From Bacteroidota bacterium (GTDB lineage: Bacteria > Bacteroidota > Bacteroidia > Cytophagales > Cyclobacteriaceae), in NCBI GenBank assembly GCA_027592755.1, contig JAQCLE010000004.1:1-64000 (forward strand): DNA of 64,000 nucleotides, given 5' to 3'. The translations under genes were made by a program, and so were the position numbers. Numbering within the stretch: the stretch's first letter is position 1; each line of letters begins with the position of its first letter. The notes under the pieces were generated by a model, which was given only the letters and a program-made list of their open reading frames with translations, was not told the DNA's origin and ran no database searches. Positions 10,553 to 34,069 of this stretch are shown in pieces.

Positions 10553-12634
10553 TCAATATGCTCCGTTGTATTTTCTTACAAACCATTCACATGAAATCAA
10601 TATTAACAAGATGAAGAATGGCCATTTGAGGTTTATCAAGGGAAGAAAGTTTTCGGTTGAATAGATTGTGCTTTTAGCATCCCTATTCATAAGTTCATTT
10701 TGAAGTGTCTCAATGTCACCCGGTCGGTAAAATTTACCCCCACTGTCTTCCGAAAGCTTTCTAAGCATGGAATGATCCGCCGTTAGATCCAAAGCCTCAA
10801 ATTGTAATTCACTTACCAGAAATTGACCCAAAGCTGATTCGGATCCTCCATTGATTAAAGTGGTAGCTTTAAATTTGTAAATGCCACGTTCCAATCCTTT
10901 AACCCGAAATCTTGAATTAGCATTGCTTGTAACAAAACTATAATCAGATGTCTTCCCTTGTTCATCTTCGATAGTCAAGAAAATTTCATCCCCATAAACC
11001 CTTTCGTAAATGTCATTGTACACTTCGCCCTCAAAAACAACATCTTCAAAATTTGATAATTCGGTATCTGTGGTGTACACCCTAAAACGCCGTTTGTCGT
11101 CTTTGGCACTTAGAAATTGAACCAGTTTTGTTATTAGTTCATCAAAAGCTTCCTGGCTGTCATTTTTCGCAAATTCGGTGGTTCGCCATTGCCAGAAACC
11201 CTCGCCAAGCATTACGGCTACTTTCTTCGATCCGGATTCAAATACTGACAGGAGGGGTTTCGTGGTAGTAATACTCCCAACTCGTTGAAACAACAGCACT
11301 TCCGCACCTTGCAGAAGTTCTGTTTTCCCGAAAGGAACGGTAACTGGAGGGTAATCAGCAAAAGATGATTGATAATTGTCTGCCTCAATGCTAAAGCGGT
11401 TAAACCCCCGGTTGAAAGCTGGCACAACCAGGTCTCGTTGGCTTCTTGACACAGTAATCTGTATAACTCCATTTAATTGGTTGAAGGTGTTGATATTTGT
11501 TTGGTTGCCGGCTATAAGCCACAGTGGTGTCTCAGAGTCAAGAAATCTCGTGATAAGAGCGTTTGTCTTATTGTACTTATCAAATGCCTGATGAAATATC
11601 ACCAAATCATATTTTTCCTCTTTCCAATCATTTAAACCCGGGATATGAATTTCAAGTTCATAATTCTCATTTTTTTCCAAAACCCCGGCAATAGCCTTCA
11701 TATCAGGATGTGGTGATAGGCCGACAAGAAGAATCTTTTCTTTCCCCTCGATAACCTCGACATAAGCATCCTTGTAATTATTTTTTACGGATGCTTCTCC
11801 TTCAAGTGGCAACACTTCGACCCTATAGTGTTGAATTCCACTTTCGGTAGCTTCAAGGTTGAAAGTGACTTGTCTTAACTGATTATTATCTGTAAACTCA
11901 ATAGCTTCACGGCTTATCTCGGACCCATTTTTCATCACTCTTGCTATTATCTTATTTCGGCCGAACCCTGTATTGGAAATTTCTGCGACTATAGGAAATT
12001 TGTTGCCTTGATATGCAAGTTTGTTATTGTAAATCTTTCGAAGACTTATATCCCGCTTTGGAATTGTATCGCCAACTCCAATTGTAAAAATTTGGAACGG
12101 ATAAGATGCAAATGCCGGTGAGAGACCTTGGTTATAAATTCCATCACTTATCAGTAGAACACCATCCAGGTTTTGGCCCTCAAAATCTGATTGAATGGAT
12201 TTGAACAGCTCATTAAGGTTAGTCACTTCGACATGCCAAGTTAAAGCCGACAAATCGGTTAAATTGTTATTAAGCGATCTTAAGTAGATATCGTAGTTTT
12301 TCAGTTTCATTCCATCAGTAATGGCTGAAATCTCATTTAAAAGATCACTCAATTTAGTGGAGTCAATACCTTGTAATATTGATGCTGAATTGTCAATTGC
12401 AAGAACAAACTTTGGGTTCTCCATTGAGTTTAATATTTGCTTCAAAAACGGACCAAGTAAGAAAAATGAGAGCATTGATATTGATATAAATCTTAATAAA
12501 GTCAAAATGTGGTTTACAGAATTATTCCAGGGTCCTTTTTTAGAATATAATAGAAATGCAAACCCGGCTCCCAATAAGACGCAAATACCAATAAACCAGG
12601 GAGAATATTCAAATAACAACTGTGGAGTTTGCAT
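10553..12634 (-). CDS. Membrane-anchored protein with vWA-like domain
   Basis: Two N-terminal membrane helices (about 12-30 and 44-63) are followed directly by a vWA-like strand with a MIDAS-type motif AIDNSAS (D81). A long beta-rich extracytoplasmic region comes next, and one C-terminal helix ends the protein (about 670-690). The layout resembles BatA/BatB-like or large vWA membrane proteins of Bacteroidota, but it has no MoxR partner nearby. The middle contains an IgG-like stretch (FPIVAEISNTGFGRNKI) and a Rossmann-like stretch beginning KILLVGLSPHPDM. The function is unknown; a role in envelope complex assembly is only a guess. It seems to be a single gene. Confidence 0.7.
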   Translation of the reverse strand: MQTPQLLFEYSPWFIGICVLLGAGFAFLLYSKKGPWNNSVNHILTLLRFISISMLSFFLLGPFLKQILNSMENPKFVLAIDNSASILQGIDSTKLSDLLNEISAITDGMKLKNYDIYLRSLNNNLTDLSALTWHVEVTNLNELFKSIQSDFEGQNLDGVLLISDGIYNQGLSPAFASYPFQIFTIGVGDTIPKRDISLRKIYNNKLAYQGNKFPIVAEISNTGFGRNKIIARVMKNGSEISREAIEFTDNNQLRQVTFNLEATESGIQHYRVEVLPLEGEASVKNNYKDAYVEVIEGKEKILLVGLSPHPDMKAIAGVLEKNENYELEIHIPGLNDWKEEKYDLVIFHQAFDKYNKTNALITRFLDSETPLWLIAGNQTNINTFNQLNGVIQITVSRSQRDLVVPAFNRGFNRFSIEADNYQSSFADYPPVTVPFGKTELLQGAEVLLFQRVGSITTTKPLLSVFESGSKKVAVMLGEGFWQWRTTEFAKNDSQEAFDELITKLVQFLSAKDDKRRFRVYTTDTELSNFEDVVFEGEVYNDIYERVYGDEIFLTIEDEQGKTSDYSFVTSNANSRFRVKGLERGIYKFKATTLINGGSESALGQFLVSELQFEALDLTADHSMLRKLSEDSGGKFYRPGDIETLQNELMNRDAKSTIYSTENFLPLINLKWPFFILLILISCEWFVRKYNGAY

Positions 12635-17295: not shown

Positions 17296-17320
17296 TTTGA
17301 GGTCAGGAACTCATTCTTTA

Positions 17321-20300
17321 ATGAAATTAATCCGGATATTCTTCATATTGACCTGTTTACAGCCCTCGCTGCTGAAGGCACAGTACTTTGAAATTGATTT
17401 TGACCCGGATGAATTTGGAATTGATATTGCTAATGGTCTTGAATTAATCCAAACAGAATCAGCAAAGAAACTTGCCTATGATTTCAAGGCACTTTGGCTG
17501 GGAAGTAGGATCACTAACGCCCAGAAGGATACCATTATCCTAATTACCCAAAAAATGAGGGAAAGGCGATTGCGAACCCGACCCTTTTTTGAATATTTCT
17601 TTACTTATATAGTTTATGCTATCAATAACACCGGGTTGGAATCCAGGGATTATTCCAAGTTACTCGAAGCCAGTTTGGCGGCTACTAACTCATACAGCAC
17701 AAAGAAACTTTCGGATTTATTTCTAACACTTAATCATATATTCGCCCGGGGACGTCTTTATTCAAGCAATTATTACACGGTTGATATCACAGAAGGAGCA
17801 ATTAGCTTCGATTATATTGCCCCAATAGATCTTCCACCTCCAATTGCAGAGGATCTTATTGCTGAAGAAGATGAATTCCTTGATGACGATTGGGGACAAG
17901 AGACGGATGATGGATGGGGGACAGATACCTCGGAATCGGATGATGATTGGGCAACAAATGAAGACGATAGTTGGGTAACTACCGATAATTGGGACACCTA
18001 TGACAACACTGATAGTGCTAACGACAGCGGATGGGATGCATGGGATAACAATGAAGATGATGGAACGGACACTTGGGAAGCGGAACCCCAACAGCCTGTG
18101 CGCCAGATAATTGAACCTGTCACTACTGTAAGGACAATTAATAACCAGCAACCAATATTATCAGGCCCGATCATTCGATTTGCAAATGCGTCATTTCTGA
18201 TGGTTACACCGTATGATTCGGTATCTATAGAAAACACTTCCGGTGAGCTCAGTACTGATACCAAAACCTTTGTGGGTAATGGAGGAGTTTTCCATTGGCC
18301 AAAAGGCATTAAGAATACAGAGGAGGTCTCAGCAGAATTTTCAGATTATAATTTTCAAATAGATGTGCCTTACATCAATGCGAAAGAGTCGAATTTGACC
18401 TATCCGTCTCTAACCAGTGATTCCGTTAAGGGTGATTTCGTCTTTAAGAGCACCAGGCGAACACCTCTTGACCCTCGCAGGTATCCTCAATTTCGATCAT
18501 ATGAGAGCGAGATCCAATTGACATTGCAAGCGGAGGACCTTCGTTATCAAGGAGGTCTGTCCATAATGGGTTCGGAGTTGTATGGAGCTAACTATTGGGA
18601 TGATTACTCAACCATTATTGTCGATGATAATAAAGGTCAGTCTTTCAAGGCCATCTCAACGAATTTCATTTTTCTTGATTCCCTCATTAGAGCAAAAAAT
18701 ACCCAAATAGCGATTTATCACGACGGTGATTCAATTTCACATCCAATTGTACGCTTTGATTATGAGCCTTCAAAAAAACTGATGACATTATTGAAAGAAG
18801 ATGGCGGTTACAAACATACCCAATATTATTCGAGTTTTTTCCGCATGAATTTTAATGCCGATATGGTTCGTTGGGATCTGAATTCGGATAGTATTGATGT
18901 CTCTGTACTCCTGGCACGACATCGAGTCCCCGCGGTCTTTGAATCTGATGAATACTTCAACGAAGAACGTTATGCCAAGTACTCCGGACTTTGGGGATTC
19001 CATCCCGTCACAATGGTTGTGAATTTTGCCCGAATATACCATACCACTGAATTCTACCTTTCCGAATTAATGATCGAATACAAAATTGATCCCAAATTTG
19101 CTGAGGTAGCAATGATTTATCTTGAGCAAAATAGTTTTATAGACTTTGATGAAAAAACAAAAGGGATTAAGGTATTGCTAAAAGCCTTTCATTATAATCT
19201 CTCCAACTGGAAACGAAAGGACTATGATAATATTCTAATTTCTTCTATTTCTGAAAAAGCGGTAAACGCTACTTTCAAACTGGATAGTAGTGAAATGGTT
19301 GTGCGTGGGGTAGAGAAGATATACGTCACACCGGAACTTGATGTATTTATAGAGCCAGATAGTGGCTATCTCAAGCTTCAGCAAAATCGATCTTTTGAAT
19401 TTGATGGATCGGTCACCGCTGGGGATTTTGTATACAAGGGCAAAGACTTCCAGTTCAGCTACCAGGATTTTCTTATTAATATGCCGGCGATTGACTCCAT
19501 CAGGATCCAGGTTAATTTCCATGACTCAACCAATAATATTGGAGATGAGAAAGTGGGTCTTCATAACCATATTTCAGAGACTTCAGGGACATTATACATT
19601 AATTCACCGAACAATAAAGCAGGATTAAAAAGGACTGTTCAATTCCCCTATTTCGTAACTACTTCTCAAGCTGTTGTTTACTTTGACGATCCCAATGTTC
19701 TTGAGGGTGCGTATGACAAATCCATTCGTTTTGTAATTCCACCGATGCAAATGGATAGCCTGGTCAAGGACGACTATTCCAAGATCAGTTTCCCTGGAAC
19801 TTTTATGGCTGGTGGAATTCTACCACCTTTTCAGGACACACTCCAAATTCTTCCAGATAAGTCAATGGGATTTCGGCATAATGTTCCGCCTGAAGGATAT
19901 GCGCTCTATGAAGGAAGCGGGAAATTGTACAATGAAGTTCATCTTGATGGCAATGGTTTAAGATCTAATGGTCATCTGCAATATATCTCCACAACCATTC
20001 AATCTGATGACTTCGTCTTTTATATGGATTCAGTAACTGCTATTGGCAATGAGGGCGAAATTGTAGCAGGGACTTTTGAAGGAGGTTCTTATCCTCAGGC
20101 AACCATTGGACACTTTAAAATGAAGTGGTTACCACAAAAGGACAGTATGTACATCGCTAACAGGCGAGAGCCATTCCAGTTTTATAATTCAACGGCACAA
20201 TTAGACGGCGAGGCAAACATTACTGCTAGTGGCATGTTTGGTAGCGGCCAATTAACCACTCGAGGTTCAATATCCCAATCGGATGAACTGACATTCAGGG

Positions 20301-22207
20301 AAAATGATTACTCTGCATGGCATGCAGATTTCAAGATACTCACTGACGTCCCTGATAAACCAGCCATGGAAGGCGACGACATTAGTCTAAATTTTGATCT
20401 TATTGCCAATGTTGCAGATATCCACCCGGAGCAGGCTGGTGTAGCTGCAATTGGCTTTCCCTATGCTCAAATGAAAACTTCAATAACAAATGCAGTCTGG
20501 GATTTAACGGCACAAACCATCTCAATGACAAAGCCAGAAACGGTTCCAATTGAAAATTCTTATTTCTATACAACCCGTAAAGATCTCGATTCACTTGCAT
20601 TCAATGCTTCTTCGGCAACCTATGATATCAATACTTTTAATCTCGATATTAAGGGAATCCCATGGATCATCGTTGCGGATGCCAAAATTATCCCTGAAGG
20701 TCATCGAACAACTATTCTTGAAAACGCGACGCTTCAACCATTTGCAAATGCTGAGATCATAATTGATACCCTGAATGAATATCACTACCTCGATCAGGGT
20801 CACATCACAATACTTTCAAGAAATAAATTTGAAGGAAATGCACAATATAAGGTTCCGATCAATAGCGATACATTCTCGATCCAATTCAATGAATTTAACC
20901 TGGTTCAGGTTCCAATAGGAAAAAAAGGATTCAAAACCATGACCGTTTCCGGGGGAGTTGTTCCGGAAGATGAACCTATCTTGATTTCACCAGGTATACT
21001 TTATAAAGGCAGTGCGTTGATGTTTGCTGATCGACCGACACTCGAATTGAAGGGCTTCGTAAAACTTGATCTTAAAAAGCCTCCCAATTATCGCTATTGG
21101 ATCATTCATGACCATAACCCTGAAGAGGACGAGGTGATCTTTGATTTCGAAACAAGCCAGACTGAACAATTTGAACCACTGACGGCGGGTTTGTTTTATA
21201 AAAACGATCTATTAGAGATTTATCCTTCATTTTTAGACCATAAGATTAACGATCCAGATGATCCGTTTTTTGAAGCCAAAGGCCTTATTAAATATGATAC
21301 ACTTTTAAAAGCATTCAAAATAGAAGAAATCCTTAAGGAAACAGGTGAGAGCTATGCAGGCAGAACGTTTATCTACGACGAAAACAATCAGACAATGATA
21401 TTTGAAGGCCCTGTGCAATTCCTTCACAATGAAAAGTTCCTGAGGTTAGAGGCTTCTGCCATTGGTTCTGCAAATATTGATTCATCGCGATATGACATTG
21501 ATGCATTCATGGTATTTGACATGGATTTACATCCGGATGTTGTTAATGCTATGAACAGCGATGTCATCGATATCATTGAAAGAATTGGTGCGTTGGAGGC
21601 ACACAATATCGAACTCGAGGTTTTGATGAATCTGGCAAATCTCACGAATGACGAGACTGCCAAGAGTTATGAAAGTGCATCCCTGGCTGATTATGTGGAA
21701 TTGGTGAATGTTGCGCCTCTTGTTTTAGGAAAAACAATGGCCTTTTCAAATGTTAAAATGTCATGGTCACAACGGAACCAAGCCTGGTATAATACCTCAA
21801 AGCTTGGGCTTTCAAATATTATGACGACAGATATCAATGCCAAGGTTGACGGTTTCATCGAGATCAAGAATGATCGCAATCTTGGACAAATTATCAAAAT
21901 GTTTGTAATGATTGCGCCTTCAACCTGGTACTTTTTCCATTATGAAGATTCACAGCTTGAGATGTTCAGTTCAAATCCGGATTTCAATACAGCTGTTACT
22001 GCTCGTTCAAATATTGATAAAGCAGGTTTCGGACAATTTGCTACACTTATTGGTGACGAAATTGCGACCCTGGAGTTTATTAATAAATTCAGGGAACGTT
22101 ATTTTGGGATTGACGAGCCTTTTGATCTGCAAATGCCAATGGATACATTCGTTGAAGATGAAGAATTTGATACTATTCTTAAAGAAGATGATGATGACGG
22201 TTTTTAA
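17321..22207 (+). CDS. Very large exported protein with Asp/Trp-rich segment, function unknown
   Basis: I do not recognise a named family. From ATG 17321 (after a GAGG-like RBS; a TTG at 17297 is less likely) the protein has about 1628 residues, starting with a signal peptide (MKLIRIFFILTCLQPSLLKAQ). Residues about 180-255 are an acidic stretch with repeated D-D-x-W or D-x-W units, probably unstructured. The rest is a long beta-rich array in which short sentences such as FVGNGGVFHWPKG, LQAEDLRYQGG or FEGPVQFL recur, reminiscent of OstA/LptD- or YadA-like beta-helical layers. The C-terminus is again very acidic (EDEEFDTILKEDDDDGF). No membrane helices are visible in the body. It is probably periplasmic or on the cell surface. 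Its TAA overlaps the convergent OmpA gene stop. Confidence 0.7.
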   Translation: MKLIRIFFILTCLQPSLLKAQYFEIDFDPDEFGIDIANGLELIQTESAKKLAYDFKALWLGSRITNAQKDTIILITQKMRERRLRTRPFFEYFFTYIVYAINNTGLESRDYSKLLEASLAATNSYSTKKLSDLFLTLNHIFARGRLYSSNYYTVDITEGAISFDYIAPIDLPPPIAEDLIAEEDEFLDDDWGQETDDGWGTDTSESDDDWATNEDDSWVTTDNWDTYDNTDSANDSGWDAWDNNEDDGTDTWEAEPQQPVRQIIEPVTTVRTINNQQPILSGPIIRFANASFLMVTPYDSVSIENTSGELSTDTKTFVGNGGVFHWPKGIKNTEEVSAEFSDYNFQIDVPYINAKESNLTYPSLTSDSVKGDFVFKSTRRTPLDPRRYPQFRSYESEIQLTLQAEDLRYQGGLSIMGSELYGANYWDDYSTIIVDDNKGQSFKAISTNFIFLDSLIRAKNTQIAIYHDGDSISHPIVRFDYEPSKKLMTLLKEDGGYKHTQYYSSFFRMNFNADMVRWDLNSDSIDVSVLLARHRVPAVFESDEYFNEERYAKYSGLWGFHPVTMVVNFARIYHTTEFYLSELMIEYKIDPKFAEVAMIYLEQNSFIDFDEKTKGIKVLLKAFHYNLSNWKRKDYDNILISSISEKAVNATFKLDSSEMVVRGVEKIYVTPELDVFIEPDSGYLKLQQNRSFEFDGSVTAGDFVYKGKDFQFSYQDFLINMPAIDSIRIQVNFHDSTNNIGDEKVGLHNHISETSGTLYINSPNNKAGLKRTVQFPYFVTTSQAVVYFDDPNVLEGAYDKSIRFVIPPMQMDSLVKDDYSKISFPGTFMAGGILPPFQDTLQILPDKSMGFRHNVPPEGYALYEGSGKLYNEVHLDGNGLRSNGHLQYISTTIQSDDFVFYMDSVTAIGNEGEIVAGTFEGGSYPQATIGHFKMKWLPQKDSMYIANRREPFQFYNSTAQLDGEANITASGMFGSGQLTTRGSISQSDELTFRENDYSAWHADFKILTDVPDKPAMEGDDISLNFDLIANVADIHPEQAGVAAIGFPYAQMKTSITNAVWDLTAQTISMTKPETVPIENSYFYTTRKDLDSLAFNASSATYDINTFNLDIKGIPWIIVADAKIIPEGHRTTILENATLQPFANAEIIIDTLNEYHYLDQGHITILSRNKFEGNAQYKVPINSDTFSIQFNEFNLVQVPIGKKGFKTMTVSGGVVPEDEPILISPGILYKGSALMFADRPTLELKGFVKLDLKKPPNYRYWIIHDHNPEEDEVIFDFETSQTEQFEPLTAGLFYKNDLLEIYPSFLDHKINDPDDPFFEAKGLIKYDTLLKAFKIEEILKETGESYAGRTFIYDENNQTMIFEGPVQFLHNEKFLRLEASAIGSANIDSSRYDIDAFMVFDMDLHPDVVNAMNSDVIDIIERIGALEAHNIELEVLMNLANLTNDETAKSYESASLADYVELVNVAPLVLGKTMAFSNVKMSWSQRNQAWYNTSKLGLSNIMTTDINAKVDGFIEIKNDRNLGQIIKMFVMIAPSTWYFFHYEDSQLEMFSSNPDFNTAVTARSNIDKAGFGQFATLIGDEIATLEFINKFRERYFGIDEPFDLQMPMDTFVEDEEFDTILKEDDDDGF
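17862..18087 (+). repeat. Asp/Trp repeat-encoding segment inside the large exported protein
   Basis: The DNA encodes about 75 residues in which DDDWG, DDGWG, DDDWA, DDSWV, TDNWD, DSGWD, WDAWD and TDTWE recur at irregular 5-13-residue spacing. It is a degenerate protein-level repeat, not an exact DNA tandem repeat. Confidence 0.7.
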
Positions 22208-25036: not shown

Positions 25037-25999
25037 TCAGCCCTCTTCAGCACCATTTTTCCCAAAAAATCGGATAATCATTTCGGATCCAATGTGAAGT
25101 ACAACGCCAAACAATGCCCAAAAGATAATTCTTGCCCGCCTCAAAAGGCCAGCAGTTAAACCAAGAGCTTCACCCAGCCCAATAAGTACAAAACCATAGC
25201 TGATACTGTATTCATTAACCCCCATCCCCTGAGGAACAAAAAACCCAAGGCTTACGCTCATAAAAAGGGCTCCGGATACAGTCATGACTTCAACAAAAGT
25301 CGGATTCATCCCGAACACCAGGAAAATGACGTATATCTCCAAAAGTGTGAAAATTCTTGAGGCCATTTTAAAACCAAAGCTTACAATAAATCTTCTTTTT
25401 GAAAGTCGTTCGTGACGGTACTCCTCAAGAAATTTCAACTTCTTTAAAATGAAGCCAGACACTTCAGTCGGGGCATTTGAAACGGTGACCCATATCGCCA
25501 AAAGGGAATACACAAAAAATGCAATCGCCGTGACCAGTACAATGCCATAAATCTCTGGACCAAGTGGGGCGATGAACAATAGGGCAAATGCTGATAAGGA
25601 GCTGTACATTGTCCCGGAAAGCATGTGGAGGAGTCTGTCTTGAATGATTGCTCGGGTAGCAAAATCAATTTCAAGCCATCGGGTGAAATGCTTCACTTTA
25701 TATGGTTCTCCCCCTAGTCCGGCCAACGGAATGATCGCATTGTAACCATTGCCCGTTAGTTGGTTGAACATCGTATGAAAAAATGGCACCCTGAAATGTG
25801 TAAGATTATAAATGCTCAAGGTATCCATTAGCATCCATGGAATAGCTGCAAGGAACACAAAGAAAATTTTTGTGCCAACAGATTTGAGCGCATCTCCAAT
25901 TGTGCTAACATCGAGGCGGTATATTAGGAAACCGAGGATTACCAGCCCAAGGATGTAAAAAATTAGTGTCTTGTATTTATGCTTAAAAAAGCTCTTCAT
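25037..25999 (-). CDS. Flippase-like membrane protein (LPG synthase TM / UPF0104)
   Basis: A 320-residue membrane protein of the family related to the transmembrane half of MprF (lysylphosphatidylglycerol synthase, UPF0104/AglD2). About eight helices are visible, together with the family hallmarks RFHL-like FFHTMFNQLTGNGYNAIIPLAGLGGEPYKV and the late VPQGMGVNEYSISYGF. It has no MprF synthase domain. Members are thought to move lipid-linked substrates across the membrane. It is 13 nt downstream of a cytidylyltransferase gene in a four-gene unit, which suggests handling of a lipid made by that unit (inference). Confidence 0.85.
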   Translation of the reverse strand: MKSFFKHKYKTLIFYILGLVILGFLIYRLDVSTIGDALKSVGTKIFFVFLAAIPWMLMDTLSIYNLTHFRVPFFHTMFNQLTGNGYNAIIPLAGLGGEPYKVKHFTRWLEIDFATRAIIQDRLLHMLSGTMYSSLSAFALLFIAPLGPEIYGIVLVTAIAFFVYSLLAIWVTVSNAPTEVSGFILKKLKFLEEYRHERLSKRRFIVSFGFKMASRIFTLLEIYVIFLVFGMNPTFVEVMTVSGALFMSVSLGFFVPQGMGVNEYSISYGFVLIGLGEALGLTAGLLRRARIIFWALFGVVLHIGSEMIIRFFGKNGAEEG

Positions 26000-26012
26000 G
26001 TAAAGACAGGCC

Positions 26013-26762
26013 TCATAGAATGTCTTTGAAGACCAATTCCCTAAGGTCTTTCAAATCAGGATGAAAATCCATTTCCCGCCAGTCAGATTTATCAATTTCT
26101 ACTGTGCTTACAGTTATCCCCTCTTTCACCAGCTCATTGAAAATTACCAGCCAATATTTGTTGATGTTAGCCTCTTCTTTGATCATCTTGATAACTTTCT
26201 TTGTGAAGAGTTTCCTTGTTCTCTTGCCTCTTACAATAGCAAGGCCAACCGATTCAGCGTCCGTCTTATTTATTGGAATTTCTTTATGGACTTTCTTTAC
26301 CAGTTTATCTTCCTGGAAAGTAACCTTCATGTCATCCTCATCATAATGATCCTTGTAATCTATGGTAATGGCAATTCCATCTTCCGGTGCTCCATTCTGG
26401 ATTGTTTGATAAATACCCTTTTTGTAGACGTTATCTCCGTTGGTGATAAAGAAGTCCTTATTAGGCAATAGCGTGTAGGCAAAATATAAGGAGAAAAGGT
26501 TATTTGAAGTTTCATAAAATGGGTTGTACACCGTCTTAATCTTGATTTTGTCTTTGTACTCCAGAATTTTGGCTTCAATCTGCTCTTTTTTATAGCCTGT
26601 TAAGATTACGATGTCGTCAATTATTCCACTGTCAATTGCGTTATTAAGCTGTCGTTCAAGTAAGGTTGTTCCATCTCCCAAATCCAGTAAAGACTTGGGT
26701 GTATTTTTAGTCAGTGGCAATAACCGGGATCCTGTTCCGGCAGCAAGAATGAATAGTCTCAT
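26013..26762 (-). CDS. LicC-like CTP:phospho-alcohol nucleotidyltransferase
   Basis: A GT-A fold nucleotidyltransferase with the signature LAAGTGSRLLPLTKNTPKSLLDL and the active-site aspartate in FFITNGDNVYKKG. The phrase NPFYETSNNLFSLYFA is the hallmark of the LicC/phosphocholine and phosphonate cytidylyltransferase group, which makes CDP-choline, CDP-aminoethylphosphonate or CDP-inositol-like products. This protein probably activates a small phosphorylated alcohol with CTP. The true substrate is unknown. It follows the HIT gene with TGAtATG spacing (one nt) and precedes the flippase-like gene by 13 nt; the co-transcribed unit is compact. Confidence 0.87.
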   Translation of the reverse strand: MRLFILAAGTGSRLLPLTKNTPKSLLDLGDGTTLLERQLNNAIDSGIIDDIVILTGYKKEQIEAKILEYKDKIKIKTVYNPFYETSNNLFSLYFAYTLLPNKDFFITNGDNVYKKGIYQTIQNGAPEDGIAITIDYKDHYDEDDMKVTFQEDKLVKKVHKEIPINKTDAESVGLAIVRGKRTRKLFTKKVIKMIKEEANINKYWLVIFNELVKEGITVSTVEIDKSDWREMDFHPDLKDLRELVFKDIL

Positions 26763-26763
26763 A

Positions 26764-27195
26764 TCAATCAGTGTGTTCTTTAAGTTGTTTTAATAATTCT
26801 GTTGATTCTTCTTCCGTGAAACCCATTGGTTTTGAAATATCGCATAGGCCCGGCCAATATATATCCATAAACTCGCGACCCATAAAATTTACTTCTTTTA
26901 AGTAGCGTGGGAAGACATGAAAATGGACTTCAGGGTCAACCATCATCAACATTTTGTAATTGATTTTTTCGAATTTCAGGAATACCCGGAGCTTGGTTTC
27001 TATATCTGAAATAACTTTTTTCAATTCAACAAAAGCTTCCGTGCTTAAATCACCGAAATTCGTGTCTTCCGATTTGGAGATTACCACCATGCTGCCAAAG
27101 GTTATTTGTTGCGGTCTTAAAACCAGATACCAATGTTCGTATTCCTGAATTAGGGACATTGGATAACCAAATTTATTTAAAGTATTCTCTAACAT
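26764..27195 (-). CDS. HIT family protein
   Basis: A histidine-triad hydrolase/transferase of 143 residues. The motif reads EVHFHVFPRY instead of HxHxHxxPR, so the first histidine of the triad is Glu while the likely nucleophile and the following His remain. The N-terminal YEHWYLVLRPQQITFGSMVVISK is the typical nucleotide-pocket strand. HIT proteins cleave nucleotide phosphoramidates or dinucleoside polyphosphates. Its coupling to the cytidylyltransferase gene suggests trimming of a nucleotide by-product, which is inference. Confidence 0.83.
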   Translation of the reverse strand: MLENTLNKFGYPMSLIQEYEHWYLVLRPQQITFGSMVVISKSEDTNFGDLSTEAFVELKKVISDIETKLRVFLKFEKINYKMLMMVDPEVHFHVFPRYLKEVNFMGREFMDIYWPGLCDISKPMGFTEEESTELLKQLKEHTD

Positions 27196-27205
27196 TTACC
27201 TTCTC

Positions 27206-29128
27206 TTAATTAAAGTATTTTCTGAACCACAACTCCAGATTAACCATCATCCAGATTTTCAGACCATAATTGTGCTCTTTGAATAAATCCTTATTAGACA
27301 GCATTTTTTCAAGACTCGCAGTATTGTATAGTCCGCGGGAAGTGGCAGAGCCATCTAAAAGGACATCCTTAGCCAGCTTATGAAATTCTCCTCCAAGCCA
27401 TTGATGCACCGGTACTGGAAAGCCGACTTTTTTTCGCCACGTAATATTATCCGTCAATTCTCTTTCGAAGGCTTTCTTTAGGATATACTTTGGGATATCA
27501 TGCGTCTCACTAATCTGATCAGCATTCAGTGTTGCCGCTTGCAACATGGATTTCCATTTGAGTTTATACTCAAAAGGTATAGTCATAGCAAATTCTACGA
27601 GCCGGTGGTCAACAAATGGTACACGGCCTTCTACGGATGTAGCCATTGTTGACATATCCAATCTATGCAGCAACCCAACAATGTGGAGCTTTTCAAAAAT
27701 CCACATGTATTTGTCATATTGGTCAAGGCCATCCAAACGGTCGTATTGCTTACTTAATAAGCTCCTGTTAAAGCTATCTTCTTTCAAGTCATTGATAGCC
27801 CCAGGGGAAAGGAATTTCTGTTTCTCTTCCCAATTAATATATTGATATAAATGCAAGAAATGGTCGAGCTCACTTTCAAACGATTGGTCACCATATTTCT
27901 TTCTGAGATTGTCCTTTAACAAACCTGACACCTCTTTTCCGTTCAACTGATCTGCTTTTTTAAGTTTGTTCAGCCTCTGATAATCGTAAGGGCTTCTAAA
28001 AATGCGGCCATAGCCACCAAATATTTCGTCGGCACCCTCTCCGGAAAGAACAACGGTGATATACTTTTTCAGTTCAGCAGACATTACATGTAGGGCGGGC
28101 TCATTGGGAACACTAAGGGGTGAATCCTTAAATCCAATTAGCCGCTGCATTTCGTCAATGTAATTTCCCGATGTCAATGTGAGCTCATGGTGATCAGTTT
28201 TGTAGAGGTTCGCCACTTCTTTGGCATAACTGAATTCATTAAATCCATCCTCTTCGAAGCCAATTGTAAATGTTTTTATGGGCTCTTTTGAAATTTGAGA
28301 CATCAGGGCAACCACTATGCTGGAATCAAGACCACCACTCAAATAGGCCCCGAACGGAACATCGGAAATCATACGGTATTTTACGGCAGAAGTCAGCAGT
28401 TCCCGTATTTTGACAACGTAATATTCTTCTCCTAAATCCTGTTTTTCGCCATTAATGGGTAGGTCATAGTACTGCTTCAGTTGTGCTATGCCTTCCTCAA
28501 TTTGAAGGTAATGACCAGGAGGAAGGGATTTGATATTATTAAAAAGTGTCTGTTCGCCAATCGGATACCGGTAACTCAGATAGCTTGATATCCCATCAAG
28601 GTTGTAGTCATATTTGAATCCCGGATATTGTAAAATGGCCTTAATCTCTGAACCAAAAAGAAGCTTACCCTCAAATTCTGTATAGTATAATGGCTTGATG
28701 CCAATTCTGTCCCGTACAATAAATGTTCGGTCTGATTTATTTTCATGGATTGCCATTGCAAACATTCCATTAAAATCCTGTAAACAATCAATACCACGTT
28801 CCTTAAAAGCATGAATGATAACTTCAGTATCAGTATGAGAATGATATTGATAGCCTCCTCCAAGTGAGTTTTTGATCTCTTCAAAATTGTATATCTCTCC
28901 ATTAAATGTGATTACATAATTCTCATCAATATCGGTCATTGGTTGTTTTCCAGCATCTGACAGATCGATAATGCTCAGCCGACGATGACCAAATGCGATA
29001 TCATCATTAATGAAGTAGCCGAAACCGTCAGGTCCGCGATGAGCCAAAACCGTGGTCATCTGAGATAAAACCACATCAGGTATTTTCGACTTATTTTGAA
29101 GATTTATTACTCCTGCTATTCCGCACAT
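27206..29128 (-). CDS. asnB: Asparagine synthase (glutamine-hydrolysing) family protein
   Basis: Class II glutamine amidotransferase fused to an ATP-pyrophosphatase. Cys2 (MCGIAGV) is the nucleophile, and the glutaminase domain has RHRRLSIIDL-like HRRLSIIDLSDAGKQP. The synthase domain carries the PP-loop SGGLDSSIV (from S264), then LSGEGADEIFGGYGR and a complete C-terminus. At 640 residues it matches the AsnB variants in surface-polysaccharide clusters, which may amidate a sugar acid instead of free aspartate. It sits at the head of the minus-strand unit HIT-cytidylyltransferase-flippase, 10 nt before the HIT gene. A minus-strand TAATTTCG element lies 24 nt upstream. Confidence 0.9.
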   Translation of the reverse strand: MCGIAGVINLQNKSKIPDVVLSQMTTVLAHRGPDGFGYFINDDIAFGHRRLSIIDLSDAGKQPMTDIDENYVITFNGEIYNFEEIKNSLGGGYQYHSHTDTEVIIHAFKERGIDCLQDFNGMFAMAIHENKSDRTFIVRDRIGIKPLYYTEFEGKLLFGSEIKAILQYPGFKYDYNLDGISSYLSYRYPIGEQTLFNNIKSLPPGHYLQIEEGIAQLKQYYDLPINGEKQDLGEEYYVVKIRELLTSAVKYRMISDVPFGAYLSGGLDSSIVVALMSQISKEPIKTFTIGFEEDGFNEFSYAKEVANLYKTDHHELTLTSGNYIDEMQRLIGFKDSPLSVPNEPALHVMSAELKKYITVVLSGEGADEIFGGYGRIFRSPYDYQRLNKLKKADQLNGKEVSGLLKDNLRKKYGDQSFESELDHFLHLYQYINWEEKQKFLSPGAINDLKEDSFNRSLLSKQYDRLDGLDQYDKYMWIFEKLHIVGLLHRLDMSTMATSVEGRVPFVDHRLVEFAMTIPFEYKLKWKSMLQAATLNADQISETHDIPKYILKKAFERELTDNITWRKKVGFPVPVHQWLGGEFHKLAKDVLLDGSATSRGLYNTASLEKMLSNKDLFKEHNYGLKIWMMVNLELWFRKYFN

Positions 29129-29152
29129 TTGGTGGGTATATCAATCAGGTTG

Positions 29153-29160
29153 CGAAATTA
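29153..29160 (-). promoter_or_regulatory. Probable -7 element for the asnB unit
   Basis: TAATTTCG on the minus strand differs from TAnnTTTG by one base. It lies 24 nt before the AsnB start, in the 116-nt divergent region shared with the CDP-alcohol phosphotransferase gene. Confidence 0.35.
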
Positions 29161-29209
29161 ACCATATATAGTGCATTCGACATTCCTTTAAATGAAAGCT
29201 TATAGGTTT

Positions 29210-29217
29210 TATCTTTG
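29210..29217 (+). promoter_or_regulatory. -7 element for the CDP-alcohol phosphotransferase gene
   Basis: TATCTTTG is an exact TAnnTTTG match in the divergent region. It lies 48 nt before ATG 29266 and 27 nt before the alternative TTG 29245. TTA, not TTG, occurs near -33. Confidence 0.45.
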
Positions 29218-29265
29218 TATCCCCCATAAAAAACTCTGTGTAACTTGTCCGAACAAGATTCTAAA

Positions 29266-30522
29266 ATGACTGAATGCAAAACTAAGGCAATCATATTTGC
29301 GCACTACCCCAATTCTCTTCATAAACTCTGGGGTATGACACTGACAGAGAAATTACTCCGACAGTTATCGGCGCTAAAAGTCGCGGAAGCAATTGTTGTT
29401 TCACCGGATGGCCATAGAGTAGAAGAATCTCTAAGGAAGGATTTTAAAAAATGGCATAATATCAGTGTGAAGTCTGAGGAGTTTGATGGAAGTGAAGTAA
29501 CCACACTTAAATCATTGGCAAAGGAATGGGAGGGTGGAGTTGTTGTTTTGCAGGGAAATACGATCGTAGATGGTCGCGTACTGGAATTGCTGATTAATAG
29601 AGCAAAAGAGGGAAAATTCTGTCAGATAAAAACGGCTGAAAACAAGCCCTATGCTTTTAGTATCAATGGTGAACAACTCAAAGAAAATACCGATCAAACG
29701 ATAGATACTTTGAAAGATTTTTTGGCATCTCGTGAACGGGAAATCATTCTAACTTCGGAAATGGACTCTTATATAGGTAGCATGCGACGCCGTATGGAAC
29801 CTTTCCTTTTCAGTATTGATGATTCAGAATCGTTGAAAAAAGCTGAAAAGATAGCTTTTATATCTATTTATAAAGGAGCAACCGATTTCATCACCAAATA
29901 TGCGTGGCCACTCCCTACCAGGCTAATGGTTCACCTTATTAGCCCCACAGGCATAACACCAAACCAAATTACTTACATAAGTATGGTGTTGTCATTTGGA
30001 GCCATTCCTTTCTTTTTTATGGGTTGGTTTTGGCCTGCCTGGATCATGGGAATTGTTATGAGTTTCCTTGATACACTGGATGGCAAGTTGGCGAGACTGA
30101 CTCTAAGGACAAGTGAAGCAGGGCATTGGCTGGATAATGCTTCTGATACAATCTATTTGTGGCTTTGGTACCTCGGCATTGGCTGGTATTTTTCAGAAAA
30201 TCTCTTTGACTTCACTGATATCAATACTCAGGCCAGCTGGGCTTTGGTTGGCTTTTTTACAATTGATAAGATAATTACAGGATTGTTTAAAAAACTCTTT
30301 GGGGCTCAGCTCCATGACTTCGGTCCGATTGACTATCATGCCCGAATCTTTATAGCCCGGAGGAATCCTTTTTTAGTCGTGCTTTTGGTTGGCTTGATAA
30401 TAGGGCAACCCGAATTCGGCCTATATGCGATGGCCATTTGGCAAACAGCCACCTTTGCTTTTCACATGATGCGATTTATTTACCTGCCGTTAAGTGGTCA
30501 GAAACATCAGGTGAATTCGTGA
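29266..30522 (+). CDS. CDP-alcohol phosphotransferase with degenerate nucleotidyltransferase-like N-domain
   Basis: The C-terminal half (from about residue 210) is a membrane CDP-alcohol phosphotransferase. The motif D-G-x2-A-R-x8-G-x3-D-x3-D is complete (D269, D272, R277, G286, D290, D294), with several membrane helices. The N-terminal about 200 residues look like a GT-A nucleotidyltransferase (KTKAIIFAHYPNSLHKL; VVVLQGNTIVDGRVLELL), but the GxGxR loop and the catalytic Asp are missing. Bifunctional CDP-inositol enzymes of archaea and Thermotoga have this order with an active N-domain. Here the activating step may be supplied by the LicC-like protein at 26013. The product could be an unusual phospholipid. 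A TTG at 29245 adds seven residues and is a less likely start. Confidence 0.82.
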   Translation: MTECKTKAIIFAHYPNSLHKLWGMTLTEKLLRQLSALKVAEAIVVSPDGHRVEESLRKDFKKWHNISVKSEEFDGSEVTTLKSLAKEWEGGVVVLQGNTIVDGRVLELLINRAKEGKFCQIKTAENKPYAFSINGEQLKENTDQTIDTLKDFLASREREIILTSEMDSYIGSMRRRMEPFLFSIDDSESLKKAEKIAFISIYKGATDFITKYAWPLPTRLMVHLISPTGITPNQITYISMVLSFGAIPFFFMGWFWPAWIMGIVMSFLDTLDGKLARLTLRTSEAGHWLDNASDTIYLWLWYLGIGWYFSENLFDFTDINTQASWALVGFFTIDKIITGLFKKLFGAQLHDFGPIDYHARIFIARRNPFLVVLLVGLIIGQPEFGLYAMAIWQTATFAFHMMRFIYLPLSGQKHQVNS

Positions 30523-30581
30523 TAGATTACCTCCCTTATGCAATTAGAGCTGTAGCCAATTAACCAATATGTTTTTACCTC

Positions 30582-30589
30582 TACATTTG
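30582..30589 (+). promoter_or_regulatory. -7 element almost touching the Wzx-like start
   Basis: TACATTTG is an exact TAnnTTTG match ending 8 nt before ATG 30598. If used, the RNA would start within a few nt of the start codon and be nearly leaderless. No TTG lies at -33, only TTA. Confidence 0.4.
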
Positions 30590-30597
30590 CGCACTGA

Positions 30598-31887
30598 ATG
30601 AATGACCTCCTTTTAAAGGCAATCCGGATATTGATGGGCAGGGGCGTTGTAGCGGTTTTTTCGCTACTATTCACAATTTATTTTGCCTATGAATTACCGA
30701 AAGTGATTTTTGGGTTAATCGCAGTACATACCATGTCGGTAAGCTTTTCAAAAGTTTTCACTGATCTGGGATTGTACTATTGCGTACTTAGAAATGCCCC
30801 ACCATTGTTACAGGAAGGCCAAAATCAAAAAGCCGTTGATGAATTCATCGCACCGGGAACATTGATCCGAACACTGTTAGCAATAACACTTACAATTATT
30901 TACGTCAGTGTGGGTTTCATTTATAGCGGGGAATTGCAATCAAACTTCAAGGAAATAGATATTTTATTTATCCTCCCGTTTGTCGGCCTCCATCTGTTGG
31001 TACAGAATGAACTGTACATTTTATCGCCATTGTTCCTTTCGTTGGAACGGTTCGGGACGGATTCTTTTCTGGATTCTTTCGGGGTCTTTTTAGAGCAGGT
31101 ATTTGCTGTCATTTTTTATCTGCTTTATGGGATCAATTTTTACTTCGTAGGAATCGTGATTGGCAAGGGCGTGAATCTGATAATCATAATGATACTCCTG
31201 AAAAAGACGCTTGTGCTCTTTGCTATCAGACCGATTATTTTTATAAGAGGTATTCGTTTGCTTAGGTCATACATTGCATTTTACGTCCGCCAGTTTTTCC
31301 GTCTCGGAATGAAGCAATTTGATCAACTAATGATTGCATTGATATTACCAATAGAACAATTGGCGAATTACGAGTTGGCCAGAAAAGGTTCTAACTGGCT
31401 CAAACATGTTATCAAGGCATTTGGACTTCCGCTTACTGTGAAATTTTCTAAGTCAACCAATGCTAAAGAAAGGAGAAAATATGCCAATACCTATTTCATT
31501 TATACCCTACCAATCCCGATCATTTTAGCTTGCCTGAGTCCCTGGATAATGGAATTATTGGGTGGTGAAAAATATGCGGAAAGTTGGTACATTCTCTGTA
31601 TTCTCTATACTTCATTTGCCCTTTATTCTATTTCAAATTTTCAATTTTCAGTAATTGCTATTTATGCAAAAAATACTGAATCACTCTGGCTGGACGTTAT
31701 TGCGGGTGTTATTGGTTTAATATCTGCCTTGATCCTCATTATTGCCTTCAGGGAATATGGTATGGCTTGGGGACAGTTACTCACCTACCTGACGCTTAGT
31801 ATAGCTGGCTATCGGATCACAAGAAAATACATGAACAGTGTAGATGCGGAAGTGAAACAATCTGAAATTTCTTCAAATGCCAACTAA
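30598..31887 (+). CDS. Wzx/MATE-like polysaccharide or lipid exporter
   Basis: A 429-residue protein of about 12 membrane helices in the MOP superfamily (polysaccharide biosynthesis/oligosaccharide flippase). It has the N-terminal GRGVVAVFSLLFTIYFAYELPKVIFGL and the central charged QFDQLMIALILPIEQLANYELARKGSNWL, as in O-antigen flippases. It would flip a lipid-linked glycan or head group across the inner membrane. It follows the CDP-alcohol phosphotransferase gene by 75 nt and overlaps the oxidoreductase gene by 11 nt, supporting joint action in one surface pathway. Confidence 0.85.
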   Translation: MNDLLLKAIRILMGRGVVAVFSLLFTIYFAYELPKVIFGLIAVHTMSVSFSKVFTDLGLYYCVLRNAPPLLQEGQNQKAVDEFIAPGTLIRTLLAITLTIIYVSVGFIYSGELQSNFKEIDILFILPFVGLHLLVQNELYILSPLFLSLERFGTDSFLDSFGVFLEQVFAVIFYLLYGINFYFVGIVIGKGVNLIIIMILLKKTLVLFAIRPIIFIRGIRLLRSYIAFYVRQFFRLGMKQFDQLMIALILPIEQLANYELARKGSNWLKHVIKAFGLPLTVKFSKSTNAKERRKYANTYFIYTLPIPIILACLSPWIMELLGGEKYAESWYILCILYTSFALYSISNFQFSVIAIYAKNTESLWLDVIAGVIGLISALILIIAFREYGMAWGQLLTYLTLSIAGYRITRKYMNSVDAEVKQSEISSNAN

Positions 31888-33415
31888 ATACGATGCCATA
31901 ATAATAGGGAGTGGGTTTGGCGGATGCATGACTGCATATAAGTTGATTGGCTCAGGATTGAAAGTGTTGATGCTTGAGAGGGGAGATTGGGTGCAACGGG
32001 GGCCCGAAAATTGGGAAGCAAACCAAACCCTGGAACTCACACCTCAATATGATAATACCAGTGCTCTACGTGTTGAGGCTGGAGGCAATAAACCCCTTAT
32101 GGGTCAATATTCATGCGTGGGGGGGCCTTCTGTTTATTACGGTGGCGTCTCCTTCCGGTTTCGAGCAGCCGATTTTAATCCACCTGAAGATATCATAGGT
32201 GACTCAGGCGCTCAGTGGCCGATATCCTACGATGATCTTGAACCTTTCTATGATGAGGCTGAAAAGCTGCTTAACATCTCAGGGGAGAGTGGTGTGGATC
32301 CGACTGAACCTCATCGAAATCAAGCATATCCGCAAAAAGTTGGTGCTTTAGCCGAAGTATCAGTGAAAGTCAAGCAATCAGCGGAAAAGCTGGGACTGAA
32401 ACCTTTTCAATTGCCGCTGGCCATAAATTATCATGATCACAACAGGTCCACATGTCAAAATTGCACCACCTGTGATACATTCGCTTGTGCTGTAAGTGCA
32501 AAAAATGACCTTGCCACAATGATAATCCCAGATCTCATTGAAAAAGGGATGGAACTTCGGCCTAACTGCCTGGTTTTATCCCTGGAACGGTCAGGATCAC
32601 GAATAACCGAGGTAAAGTGCATTGATAAGAGCACCAACCAGACAATTACATTTCAGGCGGATAAAGTAATTCTTTCTGGCGGTGCATTGGCATCACCGGC
32701 GTTGCTTCTTTCTTCAGGTTTGGATCAAAATAATCGGGGAGGAGACTTAATTGGCAGATACCTTATGAGGCATTTAAATGCAATTATTTTCGGCATATAT
32801 CCCGGTGCTGCAGATAAGGAGAAGCGATTCCACAAGCAAATTGCCATTCTGGATTACTATTTTGGACATCCTTCACTGAAGACAAACTTCACTAAAATTG
32901 GTAGCCTTCAACAGATACCTACCCCTAATCCGGGTATTGTTGAAAATGAAGTCAAGGGTATATTGGGAAAAACATTGGGTAAGGCTGTTAAACTATTGAC
33001 TGGATTGCTGGCAATCGCCGAAGACCAACCCCAATATTCCAATCGACTTTGGGTTGATAGTTCAAAAAAAGACAAATATGACCTACCTCAACCGGTCATT
33101 TTTCATCAATATTCGAAGCGGGATAAAGAAGCCCTGAAATTGTTGATCAATCCTGCGAAAAAAATTATCAATGGAACAGGTGCACTTGCCCACTATGTTC
33201 ATCATATTAGAACATTTTCCCATGCTGTTGGAACTGTAAGAATGGGCGAAAATCCTCAAACTTCTGTTTTGGATCGGAATTGTCAGTTTAGAGGCCTCGA
33301 TAATCTTTGGGTTGTCGATGGTAGCTTTATGCCTGCATCGGCTGCCGTAAATCCCAGCCTTACGATTGCTGCTAATGCATTAAGAGTTGGAGGAGAGATT
33401 TCCGAAAAGAAATAA
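31877..33415 (+). CDS. GMC-type FAD oxidoreductase with Cys cluster
   Basis: A flavoprotein (512 residues) with the FAD motif IIGSGFGGCMTAY at the N-terminus. The FAD-binding CVGGPSVYYGGVSFR follows, and the C-terminal GMC box reads HAVGTVRMG ... VVDGSFMPASAAVNPSLTIAANALR. A cluster CQNCTTCDTFAC (C-x2-C-x2-C-x4-C) near residues 194-205 recalls the iron-sulfur-like segment of sugar-alcohol dehydrogenases of this family, so a cofactor besides FAD may be bound. It probably oxidises an alcohol or sugar alcohol; the electron acceptor is unknown. Start at 31877, overlapping the flippase gene by 11 nt. Confidence 0.85.
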   Translation: MPTKYDAIIIGSGFGGCMTAYKLIGSGLKVLMLERGDWVQRGPENWEANQTLELTPQYDNTSALRVEAGGNKPLMGQYSCVGGPSVYYGGVSFRFRAADFNPPEDIIGDSGAQWPISYDDLEPFYDEAEKLLNISGESGVDPTEPHRNQAYPQKVGALAEVSVKVKQSAEKLGLKPFQLPLAINYHDHNRSTCQNCTTCDTFACAVSAKNDLATMIIPDLIEKGMELRPNCLVLSLERSGSRITEVKCIDKSTNQTITFQADKVILSGGALASPALLLSSGLDQNNRGGDLIGRYLMRHLNAIIFGIYPGAADKEKRFHKQIAILDYYFGHPSLKTNFTKIGSLQQIPTPNPGIVENEVKGILGKTLGKAVKLLTGLLAIAEDQPQYSNRLWVDSSKKDKYDLPQPVIFHQYSKRDKEALKLLINPAKKIINGTGALAHYVHHIRTFSHAVGTVRMGENPQTSVLDRNCQFRGLDNLWVVDGSFMPASAAVNPSLTIAANALRVGGEISEKK

Positions 33416-33437: not shown

Positions 33438-33890
33438 CTATTTTTCTTCAGGCTTCATTTGTGATTTTGCCCAACTTACGAGTGCCTTCCTTTGGCCCCC
33501 CGTTAACCTCGCTTCAGAATGGGCTAATGTATAAGATGTCAATGGCATACCTTCCTCTTCTACCTCCTCAGCCATTTCATCAAGTTTGTGATTGCTCTTT
33601 TTTAGGTCATAAGTTCCCCATTCGGAAAAATTAAGTTCTTCTCTTGCGTCATTTATGTGATCCTTTACCCACCATGAGACCGGAGCTATGTTAGAGTACC
33701 ATGGGTATTTGGTTTCGTGAGAATGGCAGTCGTAACATGCGGTTTTTAGAATGTCTCTGATTTGATCTGGTGGATTGGTTATTTCGATAAAATCTTTTGA
33801 AGAATCTATTGGTAGATTGATTTTGTCTATTTGAAAAATTTGTAAAAACAAAAACAAAGCCACTGTACCGATGACTATCTTTTTTTTCAT
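33438..33890 (-). CDS. Haem-binding domain protein
   Basis: A single N-terminal hydrophobic signal or anchor (MKKKIVIGTVALFLFLQIFQ) is followed by a haem_bd-type domain with a single c-type haem motif CYDCH (C52, C55, H56). The flanking segment SHETKYPWYSNIAPVSWWVKDHINDAREELNFSEW is the hallmark of this Bacteroidota family. It should act in the periplasm, probably in electron transfer or haem handling. I chose ATG 33890 over ATG 33938, which would add a 16-residue hydrophilic extension before the signal. It converges on the GMC gene with 22 nt between. Confidence 0.88.
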   Translation of the reverse strand: MKKKIVIGTVALFLFLQIFQIDKINLPIDSSKDFIEITNPPDQIRDILKTACYDCHSHETKYPWYSNIAPVSWWVKDHINDAREELNFSEWGTYDLKKSNHKLDEMAEEVEEEGMPLTSYTLAHSEARLTGGQRKALVSWAKSQMKPEEK

Positions 33891-34069
33891 TTGTATGGCT
33901 GATAAGAACAGTTCTAATTTCCCTAAGTTACAACTCATTATGGATGATCTTCATCATCTCAAACCCCAAAATTATGTCATCGATGTAAAATGTATTGAAT
34001 CTTTGTTCATTTCTTTATGGAGAATGAATATTCATCTATATTATAACTCAATGTAATTTAAATTTAGTT

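Follow-up and report, generated by a model that had tools for sequence, protein, structure and literature searches.

A narrowly distributed CDP-alcohol gene set in a Cyclobacteriaceae genome, with a stand-alone LicC-like cytidylyltransferase beside an AF2299-type phosphotransferase

Osmolytes, phosphocholine-like surface tags and the head groups of phospholipids are all products of cytidine diphosphate (CDP)-alcohol chemistry. The seven genes considered here, arranged as two divergent units on a 64,000-nucleotide stretch of a Cyclobacteriaceae genome (Bacteroidota bacterium, GCA_027592755.1, contig JAQCLE010000004.1; the window), probably belong to this chemistry. The closest described systems are AF2299 and IPCT-DIPPS of Archaeoglobus fulgidus (4o6m, 4mnd), in which a cytidylyltransferase-fold N-domain is fused to a CDP-alcohol phosphotransferase; the nearest solved members of this type are archaeal. 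The donor of AF2299 is described there as CDP-glycerol, and AF2299 and DIPPS as enzymes that process no lipids; the same account associates the six-helix build with soluble acceptors, while lipid-acceptor enzymes typically carry 3 or 4 helices more (PMC4634129). LicC and PntC are cytidylyltransferases with the motif GxG(T/S)R-x4-8-PK, and an acidic pair is described near the amine, Glu104/Glu196 in Tde-PntC with D105/D192 as equivalents in Spn-LicC (PMC6697681). An alternative inositol-lipid cluster of Bacteroidetes, as outlined in PMC9246714, pairs an NTP transferase with a CDP-alcohol phosphotransferase and includes an inositol-phosphate synthase and a HAD gene. In the Caulobacter ceramide diphosphoglycerate pathway, CpgD, a member of the same cytidylyltransferase superfamily, is reported to activate a small phosphorylated precursor of a head group (PMC12275187).

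The window comprises bases 1-64000 of contig C109 of the 4.2-Mb source genome (G000). Its gene set is real, narrowly distributed, of the CDP-alcohol type and assembled from known enzyme families (Table 1), and no description of this seven-gene combination was found in the open-licence literature searched. The set is tentatively read as one dedicated CDP-X pathway in two divergent units, in which the acceptor is polar and the product is exported, a reading that we favour while placing it somewhat short of probable. The LicC-like enzyme would combine cytidine triphosphate (CTP) with an alcohol phosphate to give CDP-X, the substrate being probably of the neutral polyol type and not a phospho-amine, and the membrane phosphotransferase would move phospho-X to a second polar alcohol or alcohol phosphate, for which inositol 1-phosphate is the leading candidate (its synthase is encoded in the genome). 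Tailoring of the product could come from AsnB, by amide formation, and from the GMC oxidoreductase, by alcohol oxidation; a nucleotide intermediate may be cleaved by the HIT protein, and two flippase-type proteins would carry the product or its carrier across the membrane. All substrates, the order of the steps, the amidation and oxidation, and the export or flipping are what we infer for these enzymes.

The class I CDP-alcohol phosphotransferase signature (D1xxD2G1xxAR...G2xxxD3xxxD4) is present in the transferase as DTLDGKLARLTLRTSEAGHWLDNASD at 276 and is complete, reading D276xxD279GxxAR284 x8 G293xxxD297xxxD301 in the numbering of the 425-residue form. The nearest solved proteins by sequence are AF2299 (39.4 bits) and IPCT-DIPPS (33.8 bits), as found with a two-genome profile. 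A structure model built from five sequences is fair in the N-domain (block means mostly 77-87 over residues 11-130), and Foldseek placed 4mnd and AF2299 on top, with AF2299 entries at ranks 2-5 and a best E of 3.6e-9. By VIA-align the whole model matched 4mnd over 354 residues (Z 16.5, root-mean-square deviation 9.5) and the N-domain matched TarI over 180 residues (Z 18.5, root-mean-square deviation 2.4); AF2299 was absent among the best 50 rows of that table. Compared by profile with nine LicC-like proteins, the N-domain gave 89.6%. The modelled transferase thus has the AF2299-type build, a cytidylyltransferase-like N-domain followed by a transferase domain, at 17% identity to AF2299/IPCT-DIPPS, a likeness drawn from the proteins themselves. 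However, IPCT possesses the GxGxR nucleotide loop, whereas the N-domain of the window protein and of its orthologue in G295, the single other genome of the same genus examined, keeps the fold without the loop. Judged by its sequence, the transferase falls outside the bifunctional IPCT-DIPPS class, which calls for an active loop-bearing N-domain. Because the loop is missing, activation is expected from another protein, most obviously the product of the LicC-like gene. In length and model helices the protein fits the six-helix class, with a weak model of the membrane part. R410, at the end of the last helix, seems to preserve one of the two arginines that hold inositol phosphate in phosphatidylinositol-phosphate (PIP) synthases.

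A second fused CDP-alcohol phosphotransferase, likewise with a loop-less N-domain, occurs in both genomes (L043:16817-18046 on G000 C73; L071:3390-4625 on G295 C110; 66.3% identity). On C73 it adjoins a 279-residue membrane protein and a GltD-like oxidoreductase.

The nucleotide motif of the LicC-like protein is intact (GTGSR-LLPLTKNT-PK, that is GTGSR-x8-PK) and fits the pattern of LicC, which is also the nearest solved protein (1jyk, 55.1 bits). Since the loop is present here and missing in the N-domain of the transferase, the two proteins complement each other; compared with IPCT-DIPPS, activation has apparently been shifted to a separate protein, and CTP activation by the LicC-like enzyme is plausible. 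The protein shares motif and overall family with LicC and PntC, but profile alignment places N108 and L205 at the positions of their amine-holding acids, in the window protein and in G295 alike. Because of this replacement, choline, ethanolamine and aminoethylphosphonate are unlikely substrates, and a neutral polyol phosphate is favoured as the better-fitting class. The residues around N108 read TNGDN, compared with TMGDH in the solved inositol-1-phosphate cytidylyltransferase. Glu occupies both amine positions in a LicC-like protein of genome G331 whose gene adjoins one for a CDP-alcohol phosphotransferase. No phosphoenolpyruvate mutase or choline kinase was found among the 30 block-flanking proteins scanned. 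The initial annotation had proposed that a phospho-alcohol is activated with CTP; this agrees with the intact motifs of both cytidylyltransferase and phosphotransferase, while the three amine compounds it had listed among the candidates are disfavoured by N108 and L205.

The block has in common with the alternative inositol-lipid cluster its pairing of cytidylyltransferase and phosphotransferase, but neither the synthase nor the HAD gene of that cluster is among the proteins scanned that flank the window pair (the synthase lies on contig C14), and AsnB, HIT, GMC and the exporters set the block apart. The resemblance to CpgD is one of description, not alignment, and the ceramide kinase and Lpt-type genes described for the Caulobacter region (PMC11324152) are not in the window block.

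Inositol-lipid genes are found elsewhere in the source genome. Contig C14 (L042:14213-18793) encodes a serine palmitoyltransferase (679.4 bits, cut-off 640), an epimerase-type reductase, an inositol-1-phosphate synthase (354.6 bits), a PgpA-like protein (88.2 bits, cut-off 226) and a GtrA protein; the order of the last three matches that of BT_1526, BT_1525 and BT_1524, described as consecutive synthase, PgpA-like and GtrA genes (PMC9246714). A BT1523-type PIP synthase is encoded on C71 (L084:1423-2133; NF052561 342.8 bits, just under the cut-off of 350) and a phosphatidylserine synthase on C150 (126.5 bits, cut-off 107). By these matches the genome encodes a separate Bacteroides-type phosphatidylinositol pathway to which the block is extra and not a part, so that the window transferase would not be needed for phosphatidylinositol. 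Within the family sample described below, inositol-phosphate synthase (PF07994) occurs in at least 4 of 60 genomes, a lower bound because G316 scored none yet has a protein with the PF01658 synthase domain.

Other combinations of these genes were encountered in related genomes. Islands in G318 (L045:8359-14593) and G316 (L068:6557-17004) each combine a serine-palmitoyltransferase-like gene with genes for an inositol-phosphate synthase and a LicC/IPCT-like cytidylyltransferase, and a CDP-alcohol phosphotransferase lies close by; they resemble the alternative cluster as proposed in PMC9246714, some gene labels having been assigned by eye. In G002 (L004:6-2178) an inositol-phosphate synthase domain precedes a fused cytidylyltransferase/CDP-alcohol phosphotransferase in which GRGSR is retained, and an HD-type gene (by eye) adjoins.

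All seven block genes are found in G295 at 66-85% protein identity in pairwise comparison. Ratios of nonsynonymous to synonymous differences (pN/pS) are 0.09-0.27, with synonymous sites saturated, and the genes appear from these values to be under purifying selection; the recurrence of all seven at such ratios indicates that the block is not a chance grouping. The G295 block is divided between two contigs, C549 carrying the minus-strand genes and C77 the plus-strand genes, with asnB split at the contig ends (residues 1-146 and 196-639). Because both contigs end within asnB, the two units probably adjoin in that genome as well. Comparison of eleven window proteins with these contigs recovered the seven block proteins and the glycogen synthase. 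The OmpA, MORN and Haem_bd flank proteins are not on C549 or C77, though they may lie elsewhere in G295, and the neighbours of the G295 block differ from those of the window at the left end and after GMC.

Distribution was assessed in overlapping genome samples of the genus (n=2), family (n=60), order (n=291) and class (n=395), drawn evenly from the larger groups; G295 did not appear in the order sample. A full-length transferase, defined as a match to at least residues 4-424 of 425, was found in 2 of 2 genus and 2 of 60 family genomes; in the order and class samples (1 of 291 and 1 of 395 genomes) the only carrier was G000 itself. Partial matches in 8 of 60, 39 of 291 and 56 of 395 genomes of the family, order and class samples were taken for other CDP-alcohol phosphotransferases and not counted; the longest in the order sample (G002) spans residues 186-384. 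A full-length Wzx-like gene is likewise present in 2 of 60 family genomes (two other matches, G303 and G309, set aside) and a full-length HIT gene in 1 of 291 order genomes, again G000 (two weak matches, G057 and G269, set aside). Thus, no full-length transferase, exporter or HIT gene was found outside the genus in the family, order and class samples searched. Some LicC-family match occurs in 36 of 60 family genomes, of which two are orthologues and 34 were set aside; the best relative outside the genus in the family sample is 31% identical over 245 residues, and G000 itself holds one other match, 27% identical over a part, and no second close relative. A scan of genome contigs with one protein returned one relative. 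Orthologues of the LPG and AsnB proteins of the minus unit were looked for in G295 only. GMC is useless as a marker of the set, with a match in 54 of 60 family genomes. The co-occurrence of the two units expected by the initial annotation therefore holds for both genus genomes and does not extend across Bacteroidota, the transferase, Wzx-like and HIT genes being confined to the genus in these samples.

AsnB was rejected as the cell's only asparagine synthetase, as G000 has four PF00733 matches. The HIT profile falls just under its cut-off, and the triad reads E-V-H-F-H in both genomes. The Wzx-like protein has no Pfam match; its label rests on the G295 orthologue (Polysacc_synt 23.5 bits, cut-off 28.2) and on an hhalign match of residues 253-413 to two homologues (probability 94.1%), one of which matches Polysacc_synt_3 at 55.1 bits. 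Its structure model, with a mean predicted local distance difference test score (pLDDT) of 39.6, was too poor for a fold search. Two exporter-type membrane proteins (UPF0104 and Wzx-like) are thus conserved with the block. The five next-closest full-length GMC relatives (G310, G299, G313, G298 and a second G295 gene) are 34-36% identical, and in all five loci an SDR gene and the gene for a roughly 880-residue protein (MGH1-like glycosidase by eye) lie nearby, neighbourhoods that are at most a hint of polyol or sugar substrates.

Table 1. Features of the two divergent units and the neighbouring glycogen synthase in the window
Feature	Position	Strand	Evidence	Identity with G295
LPG_synthase_TM (UPF0104) flippase-like membrane protein, 320 residues	25037..25999	-	PF03706 76.8 bits, cut-off 33.4	77.6%
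LicC-like cytidylyltransferase, 249 residues	26013..26762	-	PF00483 (NTP_transferase) 58 bits	84.7%
HIT-like protein, 143 residues	26764..27195	-	PF01230 19.8 bits, cut-off 21.5; PDB 2oik E 9e-4	66.4%
AsnB-type glutamine amidotransferase/synthetase, 640 residues, N-terminus Met-Cys	27206..29128	-	PF00733 299.4 bits; TIGR01536 455.1 bits, cut-off 267.1	77.5% (C-terminal piece)
Divergent intergenic region, 137 nucleotides given ATG start	29129..29265	.	plus-strand TAnnTTTG box also in G295	
CDP-alcohol phosphotransferase, 418 residues (425 with TTG start 29245)	29266..30522	+	PF01066 45.5 bits	68.7%
Wzx-like (MOP-type) exporter, 429 residues	30598..31887	+	no Pfam match of its own	83.0%
GMC oxidoreductase, 512 residues	31877..33415	+	PF00732 (N domain) 63.8 bits; PF05199 (C domain) 73.6 bits	76.3%
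Glycogen synthase, 617 residues	34070..35923	+	PF05693 697 bits; near block in G295 too	74.9%

The seven open reading frames called initially keep their coordinates, and the gene calls hold. The shared divergent spacer exists as well, although its length of 116 nucleotides has to be replaced: the transferase probably starts at ATG 29266 and not at TTG 29245, since its G295 orthologue begins at the matching ATG methionine, and the spacer is therefore 137 nucleotides, compared with 118 in G295. It contains the sequence TAnnTTTG, which we take to be a Bacteroidota promoter box; pattern scans gave that no support, a sigma-70 scan finding 19 sites compared with 25.2 in shuffled sequence and a two-box pattern (one pattern, single spacing tried) finding none. 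The absence of adjacent glycosyltransferases, from which a small head group had been argued, does not strictly hold because glycogen synthase is a glycosyltransferase and stays near the block in G295; it is probably outside the proposed pathway. The gap between GMC and glycogen synthase holds, in the window, a Haem_bd protein encoded on the opposite strand (33438-33938); in G295 the protein in that slot (L003:4643-5407) is 254 residues long and matches FkbM weakly (16.1 bits, cut-off 22.7). Pfam matches, mostly of housekeeping type, were obtained for 18 of 20 further window proteins scanned; the window proteins at 17297-22207 and 10553-12634 (1636 and 693 residues) were Pfam-negative at E 1e-5.

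Several observations weigh against a single dedicated pathway with a polar acceptor. The LicC-like protein retains NNLFSLY and Tyr203-Trp204 as LicC does, AsnB exceeds the cut-off for ordinary asparagine synthases, and some genomes (G318, G330) have an inositol-phosphate synthase but lack the block. Modelling of the transferase is poor in its membrane part (pLDDT <50 at residues 312-389 and 395-425), a hydropathy count gave just four strong peaks, one of them within the N-domain, and the other inositol-phosphate-holding arginine of PIP synthases could not be placed with certainty. Moreover, the set is found in two genomes only, with adjacency in G295 read across two contig ends, and co-conservation in two carriers has little statistical weight. 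Ordinary asparagine synthesis by AsnB, together with the divergent arrangement, would suit two functionally separate units that share a spacer, AsnB/HIT/LicC/UPF0104 and transferase/exporter/GMC, with different products; this is improbable, as both units are in both genomes and jointly absent elsewhere as far as marker genes were searched, and the LicC-like and CDP-alcohol enzymes are chemically consecutive.

Transfer onto a lipid alcohol, as proposed by the initial annotation, is doubtful given the AF2299/DIPPS build, whose characterised members are described with soluble acceptors (PMC4634129). A lipid head-group pathway would pass phospho-X from CDP-X to diacylglycerol, ceramide or polyprenol, or join CDP-diacylglycerol to a polar acceptor, and the resulting polar lipid would be tailored and flipped. 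The two flippase-type proteins, the serine palmitoyltransferase of the genome and the reported precedent of Caulobacter CpgD, which makes CDP-glycerate towards the head group of a ceramide (PMC12275187), lend it some appeal; it is nevertheless unlikely, because the length of the transferase leaves no room for the 3 or 4 extra helices of lipid-acceptor enzymes and, with CDP-diacylglycerol as donor, the LicC-like enzyme would have no evident role. An alternative in which a soluble phosphodiester of di-myo-inositol phosphate or glycero-phospho-inositol type stays in the cell as an osmolyte beside unrelated neighbours draws on the closest solved relatives, which make or are linked to such solutes (the DIPPS role partly as described in PMC4634129 and partly as generally understood), but the retention of two exporter-type genes and tailoring enzymes in the block renders it very improbable. 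Least credible is a transferase serving as the organism's own PIP synthase: it matches models of archaetidylinositol-phosphate synthase and of PIP synthase weakly (50.2 and 39 bits), and the genome has an inositol-phosphate synthase and a PgpA-like phosphatase, but these points are outweighed by the BT1523-type enzyme on C71, the window protein reaching only 22.6 bits against NF052561 (BT_1523 PIP synthase), and this candidate was rejected.

A more specific form of the favoured pathway would be a split AF2299/DIPPS-type phosphodiester pathway in a Bacteroidota genus: the CDP-alcohol would be made by a free-standing LicC-like enzyme that does not act on amines, the inactive cytidylyltransferase domain of the transferase would serve for docking or regulation, and a new envelope molecule, perhaps an amidated, oxidised phospho-inositol compound, would be exported; taken as a whole, this seems rather unlikely. 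Substrates of LicC-like enzymes are still emerging, CDP-glycerate having been reported in 2025 (PMC12275187). The block places activation and transfer on separate proteins despite the transferase's own cytidylyltransferase-fold domain, and possible tailoring and export genes adjoin; what it makes would be a new compound, whether polar lipid, surface group or solute.

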